DNA from: Chitinophagaceae bacterium
GTDB taxonomy: Bacteria; Bacteroidota; Bacteroidia; Chitinophagales; Chitinophagaceae
Direction of reading: 5' to 3'
Assembly: GCA_019638615.1 (NCBI GenBank)
Contig: JAHBTL010000008.1
Span: 62,001 to 126,000 of the forward strand
DNA length: 64,000 nucleotides
Made by a program: the position numbers and the translations under genes. Below are positions 746 to 62,011 of this stretch, piece after piece. Each line of letters begins with the position of its first letter. Positions within the stretch are counted from its first letter, which is position 1. The notes under the pieces were generated by a model that saw nothing but the letters and a program-made list of their open reading frames with translations, had not been told where the DNA came from and searched no databases.

Positions 746-759
746 GTGATAAATGTCAC
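746..759. promoter_or_regulatory. Crp/Fnr-type operator, copy 1
   Basis: Perfect inverted repeat GTGATAAATGTCAC (GTGA-N6-TCAC), 47 bases before the start of the Crp/Fnr-family gene at 807. It matches two more palindromes at 1484 and 2356 with the wider consensus GTGAT-N4-GTCAC. A -7-like element ends about 28 bases downstream, so the palindrome would be centred near -40, a position typical of activators. Its place suggests autoregulation. Confidence 0.65.
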
Positions 760-806
760 CCGCCACACAAATATTCCGGTTAAATTGCAGCAGCTAAACA
801 TGTTTC

Positions 807-1454
807 ATGGAAAATAATATGCAGCAATTACCCGCGCTCTTTCCTGGTTTTCAGCCTGATCTTATTGAAGAGTTATCCGATACAGGAGAGATCCGCTCGT
901 TTAAAGCAGGCGATATCATTATGAGAACAGGACAAAATATCCGTTTTACCATGCTGGTAGTGAGCGGGCTTATCAAGGTGTACAGGGAAGACGAGGAAGG
1001 GGATGAGTATTTTATATATCACCTGCACCCGGGCGAAGCCTGCGCGGTTTCTATGATATGCGCTACCAGGCAGGAAACCAGCCAGGTAATGGCAAAAGCG
1101 GTTGCCGATACGGAAGTGATCACCATTCCTTTGTCGCTCATGGATGAATGGATGGCAAAATATAAAACATGGTATTATTTTGTACTGGAAACTTACAGGG
1201 GCCGCTTTGAGGAATTGCTCTATACTATTGATCATATTGCCTTTCGTAATATGGACGAACGGCTGTTATTCTATCTGCGCAAACATCAAAAAAGCTTAAA
1301 AACCAATCGCATCGACATCTCTTTTACAGAAATAGCACAGGAACTCAACTCCTCCAGGGAAGTGATCTCCAGGTTAATGAAAAAACTTTCTGATCGCGGG
1401 CTGGTAAAGCTCCATCGTTCTTATGTAGAAATCGTAGCCCTGCCGCTACAATAA
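807..1454 (+). CDS. Crp/Fnr family transcriptional regulator
   Basis: A 215-residue protein with an N-terminal cyclic-nucleotide-binding-type beta barrel (about residues 25-120) and a C-terminal winged helix (about 150-210). The recognition helix is in ELNSSREVISRLMKKL, a typical Crp/Fnr helix-turn-helix. The Fnr N-terminal cysteine cluster is absent and the cAMP phosphate-binding RxS signature is not evident, so the ligand is unknown. A GTGA-N6-TCAC palindrome lies upstream of this gene and of the next two, so it probably controls itself and the sulfur genes. In many Bacteroidota such regulators sit beside rhodanese and TauE genes. Met5 (819) is an alternative start. The family call is firm; the role is inferred from context. 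Confidence 0.88.
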   Translation: MENNMQQLPALFPGFQPDLIEELSDTGEIRSFKAGDIIMRTGQNIRFTMLVVSGLIKVYREDEEGDEYFIYHLHPGEACAVSMICATRQETSQVMAKAVADTEVITIPLSLMDEWMAKYKTWYYFVLETYRGRFEELLYTIDHIAFRNMDERLLFYLRKHQKSLKTNRIDISFTEIAQELNSSREVISRLMKKLSDRGLVKLHRSYVEIVALPLQ

Positions 1455-1483
1455 ATTATACCTGGCAGACATCAGCATCACCG

Positions 1484-1497
1484 GTGATAATAGTCAC
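1484..1497. promoter_or_regulatory. Crp/Fnr-type operator, copy 2
   Basis: Perfect inverted repeat GTGATAATAGTCAC in the 74-base gap before the TauE/SafE gene. It has the same half-sites as the palindromes at 746 and 2356. An AACATTTG element at 1520-1527 resembles the Bacteroidota -7 box and would place the transcription start near 1532 and the palindrome centre near -41. Confidence 0.65.
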
Positions 1498-1543
1498 GAA
1501 ATGATAACTGCATTCCTCCAACATTTGCATGAAATTTTTTTTC

Positions 1544-2353
1544 ATGGAAATGGAAATTGCAGGATATATAACGGCGGCCTTTATTGGTATTTTGCTTGGG
1601 ACAATGGGCGGTGGCGGATCTATACTTACTGTACCCATGCTGGTATATCTTTTCAGAATGCAACCTGCTTATGCTACCTCTTACTCACTCTTTATTGTTG
1701 GATTTACAAGCCTTACCGGGGCTATGGGCAATTACCTGAAAGGCCTGGTGCATATACGCACTGCTATTTTGTTTGGTCTCTCCTCTTTTATAACGGTTTT
1801 TGCCGTACGAAAATGGGTAATGCCTGTTATACCCGAAACTATTGTACAAACTCCTTATTTCGTGTTAACCCAGTCAGCCCTCACCATGATTTTATTTGCA
1901 CTGCTGATGGTGGTGGCTGCGATAAGCATGCTGCAAAACAAAAATAAAGAAAGCAAAAACAGCGATACGGTACATGCTCAATTGCCCGTTGTGAAGCTTT
2001 TATTGTACGGAACAGGTATTGGGATAGTAACAGGATTGCTTGGCGCGGGTGGGGGATTCCTGCTTATTCCGGTACTGGTACTATTATTGCACCTGCCAAT
2101 GAAAGAAGCGGTAGGCACATCACTGTTGATCATTTCCATTAATTCCCTTATCGGATTTGCAGGAGATATAGGACATTACAGCATTGAATGGAGGAGGCTG
2201 CTGCTGATCACTACCATATCGGTAGCCGGAATATTTGCCGGGGTTGCTTTGTCGCAAAAAATTTCAGCGCAAAAGCTCAAAAAAGCATTCGGGTGGTTTG
2301 TATTGCTGATGGGCATTTTCATTCTTGCAAAAGAAATAATGTATCAGTCATAA
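1544..2353 (+). CDS. TauE/SafE family sulfite/sulfur-compound exporter
   Basis: A 269-residue, strongly hydrophobic protein with about eight predicted membrane segments in two homologous halves. Each half has a glycine-rich motif: GTMGGGGSILTVPML near the N-terminus and GLLGAGGGFLLIPVLVLL in the middle. This is the TauE/SafE (DUF81) pattern of exporters for sulfite, sulfoacetate or related anions. The frame opens at ATG 1529, but the likely -7 element at 1520-1527 would put transcription start near 1532, so ATG 1544 (MEMEIAGY) is preferred; 1550 is also possible. It lies between the Crp/Fnr regulator and a persulfide dioxygenase-like gene, each with the same palindrome upstream. Export of sulfite or thiosulfate made from persulfide is inferred from this context. 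Confidence 0.85.
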   Translation: MEMEIAGYITAAFIGILLGTMGGGGSILTVPMLVYLFRMQPAYATSYSLFIVGFTSLTGAMGNYLKGLVHIRTAILFGLSSFITVFAVRKWVMPVIPETIVQTPYFVLTQSALTMILFALLMVVAAISMLQNKNKESKNSDTVHAQLPVVKLLLYGTGIGIVTGLLGAGGGFLLIPVLVLLLHLPMKEAVGTSLLIISINSLIGFAGDIGHYSIEWRRLLLITTISVAGIFAGVALSQKISAQKLKKAFGWFVLLMGIFILAKEIMYQS

Positions 2354-2355
2354 AA

Positions 2356-2369
2356 GTGATGTAAGTCAC
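2356..2369. promoter_or_regulatory. Crp/Fnr-type operator, copy 3
   Basis: Perfect inverted repeat GTGATGTAAGTCAC immediately after the TauE/SafE stop codon and 49 bases before the persulfide dioxygenase-like gene. It has the same half-sites as at 746 and 1484. A CAATTTTA element at 2392-2399 could be the -7 box; the palindrome centre would then fall near -41. Confidence 0.65.
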
Positions 2370-2418
2370 GTTCAGATCAAAAATATTTAACCAATTTTAC
2401 ATCAAATAAAACAGTGTT

Positions 2419-3837
2419 ATGATAATAGAACAAATTTATACAGGATGTCTTGCGCAGGGTGCATATTATATCCAGAGCGGGAATGAAGCCGTTGTAATAG
2501 ATCCGTTGCGTGAAGTAGCGCCTTATATCCGCAAAGCTGAGCGTAACAAGGCGCAAATTAAATATGTTCTTGAAACCCATTTCCACGCCGATTTTGTTTC
2601 TGGTCATCTTGATCTTGCCCAAAAAACCGGTGCAACAATCGTGTATGGGCCCGGCGCGGCCCCTGCCTTTAAAGCTTATATAGCAAAAGATGGGGAGGAA
2701 TTAAAAGTAGGCGATGTTACCATCCAGGTAATTCATACCCCCGGGCATACCATGGAAAGCACCTGTTACCTGCTGAAAGATAAAACCGGCAAGCCGGTTG
2801 GATTGTTCAGCGGTGACACCCTGTTTATAGGAGATGTAGGCAGGCCGGACCTGGCTCAAAAAGTAAAAGCAGAACTCACGCAGGATAAGCTGGCTGCTCA
2901 CCTGTACGATTCGCTGCGTAATAAGATAATGACCCTGCCGGATGATATAATAGTATATCCCGCGCACGGAGCAGGAAGCGCCTGTGGCAAAAATATGAGC
3001 AATGAAACCACAGATACGCTGGGTCACCAAAAACAAACCAATTATGCGTTGCGGGCGGATATGACGAAGGAAGAATTCATCAGCGAAGTAACCAAAGGAC
3101 TTACCACGCCCCCTTCCTACTTTCCACTGAATGTGATGATGAATATACAGGGCTATGAAAGCATAGATAAGGTGCTGGAGCGCGGGCAACATGCATTAAG
3201 CCCGGAGGCTTTTGAAACTGCTGCCAATGAAACAGGAGCGCTCATACTCGATACCCGGGACGCCCAGGTTTTTGCCAAAGGCTTTATCCCTAACTCAATC
3301 AATATAGGCATTGACGGTAATTTTGCGCCCTGGGTAGGAGCCATGATCCCCGATATCCGACAGGAAATTTTGCTCGTTACAGAAAAAGGCAGGGAAGAAG
3401 AAGTAATTACAAGACTTGCGAGAGTAGGATATGACCATACTATCGGTTATCTGAAAGGTGGCTTTGAAGCCTGGAAAGAAGCAGGCAAAGAAGCAGATGA
3501 AGTGCATTCTGTTACGGCAGATGAACTGGCTGATCTTCAACAGAAGCGGGATATCAATATACTGGATGTTCGCAAAAAAAGCGAGTACGACAGCGAACAT
3601 TTGCTGAATGCGGAGAACATGCCGCTTGATAATGTAAACGACGGCATGCCTTTGATTGATAAAAACCAAACCTATTATGTTCATTGTGCGGGAGGGTATC
3701 GCTCCATGATCTTTAACTCAATCCTGAAGGCGCGTGGCTATCATAATCTCGTAGATATAAAAGGAGGATTTAAAGCCATTAAAGAGAACGGTAGTTTTCC
3801 TGTAAGTGAATATGTGTGTCCCACTACTTTATTATAG
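2419..3837 (+). CDS. MBL-fold persulfide dioxygenase-like / rhodanese fusion (CstB-like)
   Basis: A 472-residue three-part protein. Residues 1-240 are a metallo-beta-lactamase fold with THFHADFVSGH (53-63), HTPGH (106-110) and SGDTLFIGDVGRPDL (131-145), the last being typical of the ETHE1/Blh/CstB persulfide dioxygenase group. Residues about 255-360 form a rhodanese-like domain with no cysteine in the active loop. Residues about 370-470 form a second rhodanese with an active loop HCAGGYRS (Cys423). This MBL, inactive rhodanese, active rhodanese order is that of CstB, which oxidises low-molecular-weight persulfide and yields thiosulfate or sulfite. It is cytoplasmic, with no signal peptide. 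Together with the exporter and the small membrane proteins it points to sulfide/persulfide detoxification. Substrate is inferred from architecture. Confidence 0.87.
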   Translation: MIIEQIYTGCLAQGAYYIQSGNEAVVIDPLREVAPYIRKAERNKAQIKYVLETHFHADFVSGHLDLAQKTGATIVYGPGAAPAFKAYIAKDGEELKVGDVTIQVIHTPGHTMESTCYLLKDKTGKPVGLFSGDTLFIGDVGRPDLAQKVKAELTQDKLAAHLYDSLRNKIMTLPDDIIVYPAHGAGSACGKNMSNETTDTLGHQKQTNYALRADMTKEEFISEVTKGLTTPPSYFPLNVMMNIQGYESIDKVLERGQHALSPEAFETAANETGALILDTRDAQVFAKGFIPNSINIGIDGNFAPWVGAMIPDIRQEILLVTEKGREEEVITRLARVGYDHTIGYLKGGFEAWKEAGKEADEVHSVTADELADLQQKRDINILDVRKKSEYDSEHLLNAENMPLDNVNDGMPLIDKNQTYYVHCAGGYRSMIFNSILKARGYHNLVDIKGGFKAIKENGSFPVSEYVCPTTLL

Positions 3838-3948: not shown

Positions 3949-4221
3949 ATGTCAAACAATTCAGATCATGCATCATCCGAAAAAAAGGTCATTTGGTTCA
4001 GTCGCATATTACGATGGGTGTTAGGATTATTTTTTATCGGCTCAGGCATTCTGTATTACAGTGAGGGCGCGTGGCCGGCTATTGTTCTCGGCGCCGTATT
4101 TATCATAACAGGATTTTTTAAACCCACCCGTTGCCTGGGCGGCGCCTGTGCAATACCGATGCAATATTCCTCCCAAACTGAAGACCAGCCAGCTTCCACC
4201 CTGCAAAAAGCTGAACAATAA
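3949..4221 (+). CDS. DUF2892-like small membrane protein
   Basis: A 90-residue protein with two hydrophobic segments (about 20-38 and 43-58), a charged start and a polar C-terminal tail. The second helix is followed by TRCLGGACAIP, with two cysteines four residues apart. It resembles the YgaP-type membrane domain (DUF2892), which in other bacteria is fused to rhodaneses or found beside sulfide-oxidising enzymes. It lies 111 bases after the persulfide dioxygenase-like gene and is followed by a second DUF2892 gene. No operator palindrome precedes it, so it may be co-transcribed. The precise role is unknown. Confidence 0.7.
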   Translation: MSNNSDHASSEKKVIWFSRILRWVLGLFFIGSGILYYSEGAWPAIVLGAVFIITGFFKPTRCLGGACAIPMQYSSQTEDQPASTLQKAEQ

Positions 4222-4304: not shown

Positions 4305-4517
4305 ATGAAAAAGAATATGGGTACGGCAGATCGCATCATCCGCCTATTGCTGGCAATTGTATTGGTGTATTTATATGTTACCAAAGTGGTTACGGGTACT
4401 ATTGGTATAGTTCTTCTGGTTGCCGGTATCGTTCTCGCGGTTACCGCACTGATCAATTTTTGCCCGCTGTACAGGCTGCTGGGCGTCAATACCTGTGCTG
4501 TAAAAAAGCGCGGCTGA
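4305..4517 (+). CDS. DUF2892 (YgaP-like) small membrane protein
   Basis: A 70-residue protein close to the DUF2892 type: N-terminal MGTADRIIRLLLA, two membrane helices (about 12-28 and 32-50), then FCPLYRLLGVNTC. The helices form a hairpin, with cysteines just outside the second helix. E. coli YgaP carries this domain after its rhodanese; here the rhodanese is a separate gene upstream. Last gene of the putative sulfur cluster. How it acts is not known; a membrane anchor or sulfur-transfer partner is a reasonable inference. Confidence 0.8.
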   Translation: MKKNMGTADRIIRLLLAIVLVYLYVTKVVTGTIGIVLLVAGIVLAVTALINFCPLYRLLGVNTCAVKKRG

Positions 4518-7030: not shown

Positions 7031-7849
7031 ATGTCATTTAAGGGTAAAACAGTTTTTATTACAGGCGGAAGCAGGGGCATTGGAAAAGCCATTGCGCTCA
7101 GATTAGCAAAAGAAGGAGCGCAGATCGTAATAGCAGCGAAGTCGGTGGAAGAAAATCCCAGGCTTGGAGGCACCATTTTTTCTGCTGCAAAAGAAGTGGT
7201 AGAAGCTGGCGGGGAGGCATTGCCTGTTCAATGCGATATAAGGGACGAAGAGCAGGTGGCGCAGGCTGTAGCCAAAACCATTGAAGTGTTCGGCGGAATA
7301 GATATTTTAATTAATAACGCTTCCGCCATCTCACTCACTCCCGTAGAAAAAACAGAACCCAAACGTTTTGACCTGATGTTCGACATCAATGTAAGAGGAA
7401 CTTTTTTCGTAAGCCGTGCCTGTATACCGCATTTGCGCAAAGGGAACAACCCGCATATCCTGAACCTGTCGCCACCCGTAAATCTTCAGCCTAAATGGCT
7501 GGGCAGCCATGTAGCATATACCATGAGCAAATACAACATGAGCATGATCGCGCTGGGACTGGCGGAAGAGCTGAAGAAAGACAAAATAGCAGCCAATGCG
7601 TTGTGGCCACAAACCACTATAGCTACTGCAGCCGTACAAAACCTGCTGGGCGGAGAGGCGCTGATCAGAATGAGCCGTACCCCCGACATTGTGGCCGATG
7701 CGGCTTATTATATTCTTTCGCGCCCGTCGGACAGTTGTACAGGCAATACCTTTATTGATGAACAGGTGCTGGCCGAAGAAGGCATTACCGACCTAAGCAA
7801 ATACAACGTGGTACCCGGCGCACAGTTATATCCTGACCTGTTTTTGTAG
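7031..7849 (+). CDS. Short-chain dehydrogenase/reductase, HSDL2-like
   Basis: A 272-residue classical-type SDR. The cofactor loop is TGGSRGIG (residues 11-18), the structural motif is NNAS, the catalytic serine is in LNLSPPVNL and the catalytic pair is in YTMSK. The segment IVIAAKSVEENPRLGGTIF and the run NALWPQTTIATAA match the N-terminal domain of the HSDL2 family, whose substrates are uncertain (fatty-acyl or hydroxysteroid-like). The SCP2 domain of animal HSDL2 is absent. It is cytosolic and NADP- or NAD-dependent. It is followed by a 215-base tract of AT-rich repeated words. Confidence 0.88.
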   Translation: MSFKGKTVFITGGSRGIGKAIALRLAKEGAQIVIAAKSVEENPRLGGTIFSAAKEVVEAGGEALPVQCDIRDEEQVAQAVAKTIEVFGGIDILINNASAISLTPVEKTEPKRFDLMFDINVRGTFFVSRACIPHLRKGNNPHILNLSPPVNLQPKWLGSHVAYTMSKYNMSMIALGLAEELKKDKIAANALWPQTTIATAAVQNLLGGEALIRMSRTPDIVADAAYYILSRPSDSCTGNTFIDEQVLAEEGITDLSKYNVVPGAQLYPDLFL

Positions 7850-7855
7850 AAGCTT

Positions 7856-8050
7856 GTAACCTGTGTCAGCTATCAGCGGTCAGGTATCAGCCGTCAGCAA
7901 TGGAAAGTTGACAATTGACAGTGGACAATAAAAAGTTACGGGTTTATCGTTTGAGATTTATGGTCTACAAACTTCAAACAACAAACCTGAAACTATAAAC
8001 CAGAAACCACAAACATCTCAAATTTCAAATCTCGAATCCTCCCTCCTGAA
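7856..8050. repeat. AT-rich degenerate word-repeat tract 1
   Basis: The tract is made of short recurring words: TATCAGC, GACAATTGACAGTGGACAAT, AAACCTGAAACTATAAACC and CTCAAATTTCAAATCTCGAA. The last word with its continuation (8017-8042, 26 bases) recurs at 26272-26297 with one mismatch, and in reverse complement, more diverged, near 13863-13900. No reading frame or simple tandem period explains it. Confidence 0.65.
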
Positions 8051-12841: not shown

Positions 12842-13855
12842 ATGAATCGCAAACATTTTTTATCATCGGTTTTAACGGCCGGAACCGCTTTACCGGCAAT
12901 AGCAGCTTCCTTGCACGATGCCGATACTCCCAGCCTCGTGCCCCCGGCGCTGAAACCGGGAGATGTGATCGGCATCACTTCTCCGGCAGGTTTTATTACG
13001 ATCAATGACCTGCAGCCGGCCATACAAAAAATAGAGAGCTGGGGATTAAAAGTGAGGCTGGGCAATACCATCGGCAAAAGAGATTTCAGCTTTGGCGGAA
13101 CAGACAATGAAAGAGCAAAGGATTTTCAGCAAATGCTGGACGACCCGGCTGTTAAAGCTATCATGTGCGCGCGGGGAGGCTATGGCGCTGTAAGGATCAT
13201 TGATAACCTGAACTTTTCAAAATTCCAGGACAGGCCCAAATGGATCATCGGGTTCAGCGATATTACCGTGCTGCATTCACACATCAACGGCAATTACAAA
13301 ATAGCTACCATTCATTCCAAAATGTGCAACAGCTTTCCGGAAGACTGGAGCAAAGCGGAACCCGTGCAAATTGATACCATCGCCTCCATAAAAGACGCGC
13401 TGACCGGTGTAAAAATGAAATATACCGCTCCGTCCAATGATAAAAACAGGAACGGCATTGCAGAAGCGGCACTGATCGGCGGCAACCTGAAAACGATAGA
13501 AAACCTTGCCGGGTCAAAATCAGAAATAAAAACCGCCGGTAAGTTTTTATTTTTAGAAGACACCGGAGAATATCTTTACAGTATAGACAGGATGTTCTGG
13601 AACCTGAAACGCACCAATAAATTGTCGCAGTTGAAAGGGCTGATCGTTGGCGGCTTTAAAATAAAACCCGATGAACCGGGCGAAGAGTTCGGGCGCACTT
13701 TGCAGGATATCGTCTGGGAAAAAGTGAAGGAATACAATTATCCTGTTTGCTTTGATTTCCCGGTAGGGCATCAAAAAAATAACTTCGCTCTAAAGTGCGG
13801 CGTCCTGCACCGGTTAAGCGTAACCTCAGCGAAAGTAGAGTTAGTGGAAATATGA
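12842..13855 (+). CDS. LD-carboxypeptidase (peptidase S66), exported
   Basis: A 337-residue member of the LdcA/MccF family. The N-terminal MNRKHFLSSVLTAGTALPA looks like a Sec or Tat-like signal, which selects ATG 12842 inside a frame open from 12680. Family features: KPGDVIGITSPAGF at the start of the mature chain, RGGYGAVRI, the nucleophile elbow GFSDIT (Ser), LEDTGEY (Glu) and FPVGHQKNNFALKCG (His). These enzymes cut the L,D-bond in peptidoglycan tetrapeptides during recycling; some remove microcin-like compounds. A paralogue follows after a 293-base repeat tract. Confidence 0.88.
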   Translation: MNRKHFLSSVLTAGTALPAIAASLHDADTPSLVPPALKPGDVIGITSPAGFITINDLQPAIQKIESWGLKVRLGNTIGKRDFSFGGTDNERAKDFQQMLDDPAVKAIMCARGGYGAVRIIDNLNFSKFQDRPKWIIGFSDITVLHSHINGNYKIATIHSKMCNSFPEDWSKAEPVQIDTIASIKDALTGVKMKYTAPSNDKNRNGIAEAALIGGNLKTIENLAGSKSEIKTAGKFLFLEDTGEYLYSIDRMFWNLKRTNKLSQLKGLIVGGFKIKPDEPGEEFGRTLQDIVWEKVKEYNYPVCFDFPVGHQKNNFALKCGVLHRLSVTSAKVELVEI

Positions 13856-61972: not shown

Positions 61973-62011
61973 CCAATAAAGGTATTGCAGTAACCAACAG
62001 AAGCATTCAAC

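Follow-up and report, generated by a model that had tools for sequence, protein, structure and literature searches.

The 64,000-nucleotide stretch studied here (positions 62001–126000 of contig JAHBTL010000008.1 from a Chitinophagaceae bacterium whose host genome comprises 7.18 Mb in 87 contigs; hereafter the window) carries a gene for a Crp/Fnr-family regulator beside genes for a TauE/SafE exporter and a CstB-like protein, and it raises the question of whether that regulator controls its sulfur-gene neighbors and, if so, in which direction. An original prediction, made from the letters of the window alone, held that three matching palindromes place all three genes under the regulator. Our analysis indicates that the regulator is very likely a class II activator of a sulfide/persulfide oxidation regulon, acting through the operator GTGAY-N4-RTCAC. 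What the sequences themselves establish is that the sites exist, how they are placed relative to the promoter −7 element, that they are conserved and occur together with the regulator, and that operator base 3 covaries with residue 185 of the protein.

The three sites, here called S1, S2 and S3 (Table 1), are all present where they had been reported and match GTGATNNNNGTCAC exactly. They had been described as perfect palindromes, and this is true of the 4-bp arms GTGA/TCAC but not of the fifth pair, in which T faces G and is unpaired. The argument that three sites in 1.6 kb are unlikely to arise by chance holds: from the genome-wide counts, a Poisson estimate puts the chance of three in 1624 bp at about 1e-10 to 3e-9. 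The window has four copies of the bare GTGA-N6-TCAC where 0.30 would be expected (none of 100 shuffles reached four), and the fourth occurrence, at 12965–12978, lies inside an open reading frame (ORF) of 391 aa.

The exact sequence GTGAT-N4-GTCAC is found only six times in the whole 7.18 Mb genome (four times for a reversed-pattern control). Two of these sites lie on another contig, one with its centre about 58 bp 5′ of a rhodanese gene that is followed by two YeeE/YedE-type genes, and the other with its centre about 54 bp 5′ of a sulfide:quinone oxidoreductase (SQR) gene. The encoded SQR is of the mitochondrial type, matching human mitochondrial SQR (6oi5) at 2.7e-103 over residues 4–414 of 416. 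Five of the six exact sites in the genome thus stand before the regulator or genes of sulfide oxidation, and the motif does not turn up as often in other places; the proposed regulon of local regulator and sulfur genes is supported, but its extent reaches past the window to SQR and the rhodanese-YeeE-YeeE operon. A stricter, tailed pattern, in which GTGAY-N4-RTCAC is followed after 25–26 nucleotides (nt) by TTTRC, is present exactly four times in the genome, at S2, S3, the rhodanese operon and SQR (control, none); S1 is excluded from it by its −7 element, TAAATTGC. The remaining exact site (C1:286032) is intergenic, adjoins no sulfur gene and lies about 306 bp 5′ of a 652-aa gene, presumably for a GH127 enzyme, and we have set it aside as a chance occurrence.

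The position of these sites relative to the predicted promoters is that of an activator. CRP recognizes GTGA half-sites separated by a 6-base gap and at class II promoters binds at −41.5, which is the classical activator geometry. The Flavobacterium −7 element TAnnTTTG spans −12 to −5 in the excerpts consulted (PMC6847099; PMC9723704), and our operator positions rest on that published placement, the transcription starts themselves being predicted. By this measure the operator centre falls at −41.5 for S2, S3 and both sites outside the window and at −40.5 for S1, within the range of −40 to −42 claimed earlier, and it would place the regulator among the class II activators of Crp/Fnr type. The constant spacing that had been claimed is exact for S2 and S3, where TTTG or TTTA starts 26 nt on, while the S1 element is one base closer. 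Predicted leaders are 12–15 nt long if TauE/SafE starts at 1544, and 12–17 nt when both outside operons are included. The first position of TAnnTTTG holds T in only 13% of the 126 distinct promoters described below, and this T is nearly invariant in the Flavobacterium johnsoniae promoter set as excerpted (PMC6847099); such a weak −7 element would be expected where promoters need an activator. The regulator's own promoter element, TAAATTGC, resembles the SM5 box (TAnnTTGY) described in available parts of a study of F. psychrophilum (PMC9723704), and so this promoter may use a different sigma factor.

Conservation was followed with a profile of 20 aligned orthologs, taken from 30 regulator loci, which was scanned against genome contigs; the best 80 of 499 relatives were kept, and these comprise Chitinophagaceae genera, unplaced Bacteroidetes assemblies, five Flavobacterium records and a few oddly labelled ones. 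Exact GTGA-N6-TCAC is present in 66 of the 80 loci and stands before a reference gene in 63. Altogether there are 154 such sites in 1,138,423 bases, 123 of them within 250 bp 5′ of homologs of the sulfur genes or the regulator, so the conservation in relatives that the original prediction called for is found. Eleven other half-sites of the same composition give 0–2 such placements and other gap lengths 0–4, and GTGA ranks first among all 256 half-sites for placement before these genes. The consensus GTGAY-N4-RTCAC follows from 126 distinct promoters (window and L007 included), in every one of which a pyrimidine (C or T) stands at base 5 and a purine (A or G) at base 10, neither having been required; TTTG at offset 26, the commonest spacing, occurs in 72 of them. 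The 128 promoter rows precede genes for TauE (45), CstB (44), the regulator (14), YeeE (8), rhodanese (6), the second YgaP-like protein (5), SQR (5) and DUF6132 (1). Among the 31 sites away from reference genes, eight break the C/T–A/G rule and all eight are inside ORFs. One comparison took the window and 43 of the 80 loci (L112, L119, L122, L124, L133 and L140 were left out together, L124 having a stop in the range taken). In the alignments with L063, the nearest relative, and L064, S2 and S3 stand out as conserved blocks, and S1 is kept in L063 (as GTGATAAATATCAC) and absent from L064.

Across the class, the regulator profile gives a match at E ≤ 1e-45 in 113 of 395 genomes. The exact motif is present in only 7 of the 28 class-wide loci read, which first looked like loss and is explained in part by the occurrence of GTAAC variants. 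No tailed version with up to two mismatches was seen in 7 of these 28 (L180, L182, L186, L188, L189, L196 and L198), and the candidate tailed sites of L193 and L195 do not persuade us. When 137 loci are taken together, 72 tailed sites with one mismatch are found, and seven controls give 1–20; the commonest changes are GTAA left arms and TCAT right arms. Tailed two-mismatch sites are not enriched there (77 against 46–186).

The operator also tracks the presence of the regulator. When 147 genomes of the family were divided by a close ortholog (at least 208 bits; G095, with an ortholog fragment only, was placed among the others), the operator-promoter pattern was found in 47 of 58 genomes with the ortholog (98 sites, control 9) and in 22 of 89 without it (29 sites, control 11), an association with a Fisher p of about 1e-11, uncorrected for relatedness. 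SQR, found in 22 of the 147 genomes, is preceded by a GTNAY-N4-RTNAC site in 20 of the 22, with a tail in the gene direction in 11.

More telling is which operator accompanies which regulator. Residue 185 of the recognition helix, the equivalent of CRP E181, is Glu in 171, Val in 43 and Ala in four of 218 regulator loci, which are not independent because the source samples overlap in species. With base 3 left open, a tailed GTNAY-N4-RTNAC site lies within 250 bp of the regulator gene in 107 of 171 Glu, 28 of 43 Val and one of four Ala loci, and base 3 of the half-sites is G in 204 and A in 36 for Glu, A in 44, T in eight, C in four and G in two for Val, and G in two for Ala. Dereplication at 85% identity reduced the 135 loci that have both a tailed site and Glu or Val to 99, among which at least one G half-site is present in 72 of 74 Glu loci and none in 23 of 25 Val loci, these having GTAAC-type operators. 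In a quick tree, from which the helix columns had been left out and in which some branches are long (L264, L245, L249 and L273), six Glu/Val changes and six operator changes are needed; over four independent pairs (starred branches) the operator shifts the same way in 3.4 and the opposite way in 0.1 on average. The SQR genes repeat the pattern, with a G half-site in 15 of 16 Glu-type genomes and none in three of four Val-type genomes (p 0.013, the second regulator of G022 being left out of the readings), and in G045, where a Glu-type and a Val-type regulator coexist, the operator at SQR is mixed. The linkage of motif to regulator orthologs foreseen in the original prediction thus held in both tests, and the covariation appears to us the best evidence that the neighboring regulator reads these sites. 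The Glu/Val-to-G/A rule resembles a specificity change of CAP E181 mutants that Ebright reportedly described in 1984.

The regulator itself falls in the Crp/Fnr superfamily, with PF00027 (1e-12) and PF13545 (4.6e-09) both above cut-off, and not in the better known classes within or beside it. It is like Escherichia coli CRP in domain architecture and in keeping R180, E181 and R185, and it differs in having T91 in place of R82, two cysteines in the pocket region, sulfur-oxidation targets and a Bacteroidetes −7 element. R82 is the arginine that contacts the cAMP phosphate, and with T91 aligned to it the protein does not qualify as a cAMP-dependent CRP; the NCBIfam CRP model gives 46.5 bits against a cut-off of 266. 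With FNR-type regulators it shares superfamily membership, and FNR also uses Ser at the corresponding recognition-helix position. FNR, however, has four cysteines for its Fe-S cluster, whereas the window protein lacks the N-terminal cysteine cluster and contains only C79 and C85, so that it is not an FNR of the Fe-S type. Pfam finds its Crp/Fnr domains and no CsoR-type domain.

We suggest the following mechanism. The regulator, like its superfamily, would bind GTGAY-N4-RTCAC as a dimer, and from −41.5 it would activate promoters with a weak −7 element of the form nAnnTTTRC. Its predicted targets are TauE/SafE, the CstB-like persulfide dioxygenase-sulfurtransferase, SQR and the rhodanese-YeeE-YeeE operon, and in the host genome it probably also controls itself. 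Functionally it would take the place that CstR holds over the Staphylococcus cst genes, but with the geometry of an activator.

Several observations weigh against this scheme. In the host genome the one-mismatch pattern is not enriched (179 against 233 in the control), and GTGA-N6-TCAC occurs 56 times (control 33); the bare palindrome therefore does not define the regulon, and the signal resides in the exact sites and their context. Among the relatives, an exact site before any reference gene is missing from 17 of the 80 loci, 11 of the 58 genomes with a close ortholog lack the strict pattern while the 22 of 89 noted above have it without one, and no tailed site is seen up to 250 bp from the regulator gene in 64 of the 171 Glu loci and 15 of the 43 Val loci. 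For SQR, G080 and G081 have the gene without a site, and nine of the 20 sites have no tail in the gene direction. The covariation has two exceptions on each side, A stands at base 3 in 36 of 240 half-sites of Glu-type regulators, and G084 (Glu) and G123 (Val) depart from the rule at SQR; the sign test on the tree is not significant (median p 0.25), and cannot be, because independent Glu/Val switches are too few (4–6). C85 is missing from 16 of the 218 loci. Finally, the claim that the regulator controls itself as well as both sulfur genes fares unevenly: the TauE and CstB operators are conserved, but autoregulation is its weakest part, the autoregulatory site being present in only 12 of the 80 related loci and lost in L064.

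The signal is a less certain part of the scheme. C79 is kept in all 218 loci and C85 in 202; in Glu-type proteins the counts are 171 of 171 and 167 of 171, with exactly two cysteines in 104 of 171. In the alignment with CRP, both fall in the part of the beta-roll that corresponds to the cAMP pocket region, and the pair would suit a sensor of thiols or persulfide. Among proteins of known structure the nearest relative is 3dv8, which we take to be of Firmicutes origin; it has the same C-x5-C spacing, so the cysteine pair may not be confined to the Bacteroidetes phylum. Since the targets are SQR, a persulfide dioxygenase, a sulfurtransferase and sulfur transporters, persulfide or polysulfide is the likeliest signal, and we give about even chances to the view that C79 and C85 read it near the position of cAMP in CRP. 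A Crp-like regulator of Acinetobacter baumannii, 50% identical to E. coli Crp, is persulfidated in sulfide-exposed cells according to the portions of PMC7315123 consulted, which makes persulfide sensing by such a protein more plausible and less unprecedented; those portions do not tie it to a sulfide-oxidation regulon, and our comparison with it is by description only. The fuller picture, in which a two-cysteine Crp/Fnr persulfide reader of the Bacteroidia activates from −41.5 and several lineages swapped Glu and Val while their operators shifted between GTGA and GTAA, so that nature would have repeated the CAP E181 change over a whole regulon, is one that we put forward tentatively, as somewhat short of an even bet.

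Of the alternatives, the one that fares best keeps the regulon as described and changes the signal to redox state, nitric oxide (NO), heme or disulfide stress, and we consider it quite possible. HcpR and PgRsp of Porphyromonas gingivalis, Crp/Fnr regulators from the same phylum tied to redox or nitrosative stress and comparable to our protein by description only, are reported to bind heme (sections seen of PMC12040651); OsmC, thioredoxin and outer-membrane efflux genes behind such operators in some relatives fit a broader thiol stress, and the loci without C85 point the same way. The excerpts of the PgRsp paper (PMC6955866) contain no sulfide or rhodanese term, and those of PMC12040651 no sulfide or persulfide term. 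Against a different signal stand the core targets, which are enzymes of sulfide and persulfide oxidation and not of NO or oxygen metabolism, and the retention of C79 and C85 in Glu-type proteins.

Alternatively, the same protein could bind the same sites as a repressor that persulfide releases, in the manner of CstR, with the site covering the −33 region. The gene set is like that of the Staphylococcus aureus CstR/cst system (tauE, cstA, cstB, sqr; gene list and CstR cysteines in the parts seen of PMC5480029 and PMC9774590), with overlapping TauE, CstB and SQR and a dedicated cysteine-pair regulator. CstR is a repressor in those same excerpts, with the all-helical fold of the CsoR type (PMC9774590), and BigR is called a repressor in an abstract; the operator here does overlap the expected −33 element. 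Our regulator differs from CstR in being a Crp/Fnr protein with activator geometry, and the locus differs from S. aureus cst in including rhodanese and YeeE and in an SQR whose best match is the human mitochondrial type. For a repressor, a fixed 26-nt spacing to TTTG with the operator centre at −41.5 would be unnecessary, and the first T of the −7 element is as rarely kept as stated above; we therefore judge repression rather improbable.

It is more improbable still that another Crp/Fnr protein, a global regulator responsive to cAMP, oxygen or NO, uses the sites and that the neighboring gene is a passenger. GTGA-N6-TCAC is the generic CRP half-site pair, and the genome does encode two other Crp/Fnr matches at E ≤ 0.001. 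These are only about 20% identical to the regulator, lack C79 and R184 and have different helices (RVETVIR and TYETVYK against SREVISR), and the sites track the presence of the neighboring regulator and its residue 185. That the palindromes are chance or structural elements such as terminators or repeats is scarcely credible, in spite of the unenriched one-mismatch forms and the one exact site in six without an adjoining sulfur gene, given the Poisson estimate and the recurrence of position, spacing and covariation in relatives.

The activator that we favor would thus differ in kind from other regulators of such genes. SqrR, BigR and FisR belong to protein families other than Crp/Fnr. They are reported to control sulfide-oxidation genes in response to persulfides (in the parts seen of PMC7315123, among others), and persulfide control of such genes by other families is likewise described in excerpts of PMC9774590. 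Among the matches listed in the open-licence literature, a scope that leaves subscription papers and regulon databases outside, we recognized no Crp/Fnr regulator of this gene set. If the scheme is correct, it would provide a testable sulfide switch for a large bacterial group, explain what many proteins annotated as "Crp/Fnr family" next to TauE and CstB-like genes are for, and offer an example from nature in which a regulator and its operators have changed in step.

Table 1. Operators, promoter elements, regulator residues and genes of the cluster (window coordinates)
Feature	Position	Strand	Sequence	Remarks
Operator S1	746–759	+	GTGATAAATGTCAC	Centre about −40.5; 5′ of regulator gene
−7 element of S1	781–788	+	TAAATTGC	TAnnTTGY type; predicted start near 793; also in L063 and L064
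Regulator gene	807–1454	+		Crp/Fnr family, 215 aa; Pfam cNMP_binding and HTH_Crp_2 above cut-off
Codons C79 and C85	1041–1061	+		C79 1041–1043, C85 1059–1061; only cysteines; candidate sensor pair
Recognition helix	1356–1373	+		R184-E185-V-I-S-R189, equivalent to CRP R180, E181, R185 (profile alignment)
Operator S2	1484–1497	+	GTGATAATAGTCAC	Centre −41.5; 5′ of TauE/SafE gene; operator also in L063 and L064
−7 element of S2	1520–1527	+	AACATTTG	Predicted start 1532; 26-nt spacing as in relatives
TauE/SafE exporter gene	1544–2353	+		Pfam TauE 2.3e-41; start moved from 1529
Operator S3	2356–2369	+	GTGATGTAAGTCAC	Centre −41.5; 5′ of CstB-like gene; operator also in L063 and L064
−7 element of S3	2392–2399	+	CAATTTTA	Predicted start 2404; 26-nt spacing as in relatives
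CstB-like gene	2419–3837	+		Metallo-beta-lactamase (persulfide dioxygenase-like) and two rhodanese domains (Pfam Lactamase_B, rhodanese)
YgaP-like protein a	3949–4221	+		Small membrane protein; 24.7 bits, just below Pfam cut-off 25.3
YgaP-like protein b	4305–4517	+		Membrane protein; Pfam match

The TauE/SafE gene probably starts at the ATG at 1544, which is likelier than 1529 because the predicted transcription start lies 3′ of the latter. The product of the next gene has the metallo-beta-lactamase and two rhodanese domains of a CstB, the second rhodanese domain with the loop CAGGYRS; its best solved relatives are 3tp9 and 3r2u, both near full length, and residues 1–455 of 472 match 3r2u at 1.9e-67, so on domain content it would be classed as a CstB. 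YgaP-like protein a, a homolog of which also lies 3′ of CstB in L063, is a possible read-through member of the operon. No operator-promoter site lies 5′ of the gene for YgaP-like protein b in the window, and its homologs are those that account for five of the 128 promoter rows in relatives.

In the rhodanese operon on the other contig (C21), the YeeE genes are followed by genes for a Tll0287-like protein with a CxxCH motif and a DUF2490 protein (L007:7911–8513 and 7132–7866). A group of paralogs of the regulator (L202 and L204–L212) has a GESCIMSFLGG-like pocket that lacks the second cysteine, and its helix carries Val or Ala; its genes mostly adjoin TauE, CstB, YeeE, rhodanese or YgaP genes; it may represent a one-cysteine version of the same switch. 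Several other sites away from reference genes are tailed and stand 5′ of outer-membrane efflux, OsmC, thioredoxin or DUF302 genes. The efflux (OEP) genes are at L068:2373–3731, L074:3748–5112 and L088:10701–12038, and the efflux system may be part of the regulon in those relatives; operators also lie close to where OsmC-like, thioredoxin and DUF302 genes begin (L071:8666–9172, L135:8703–9167 and L117:10280–11230), which suggests a wider thiol-stress regulon in relatives.

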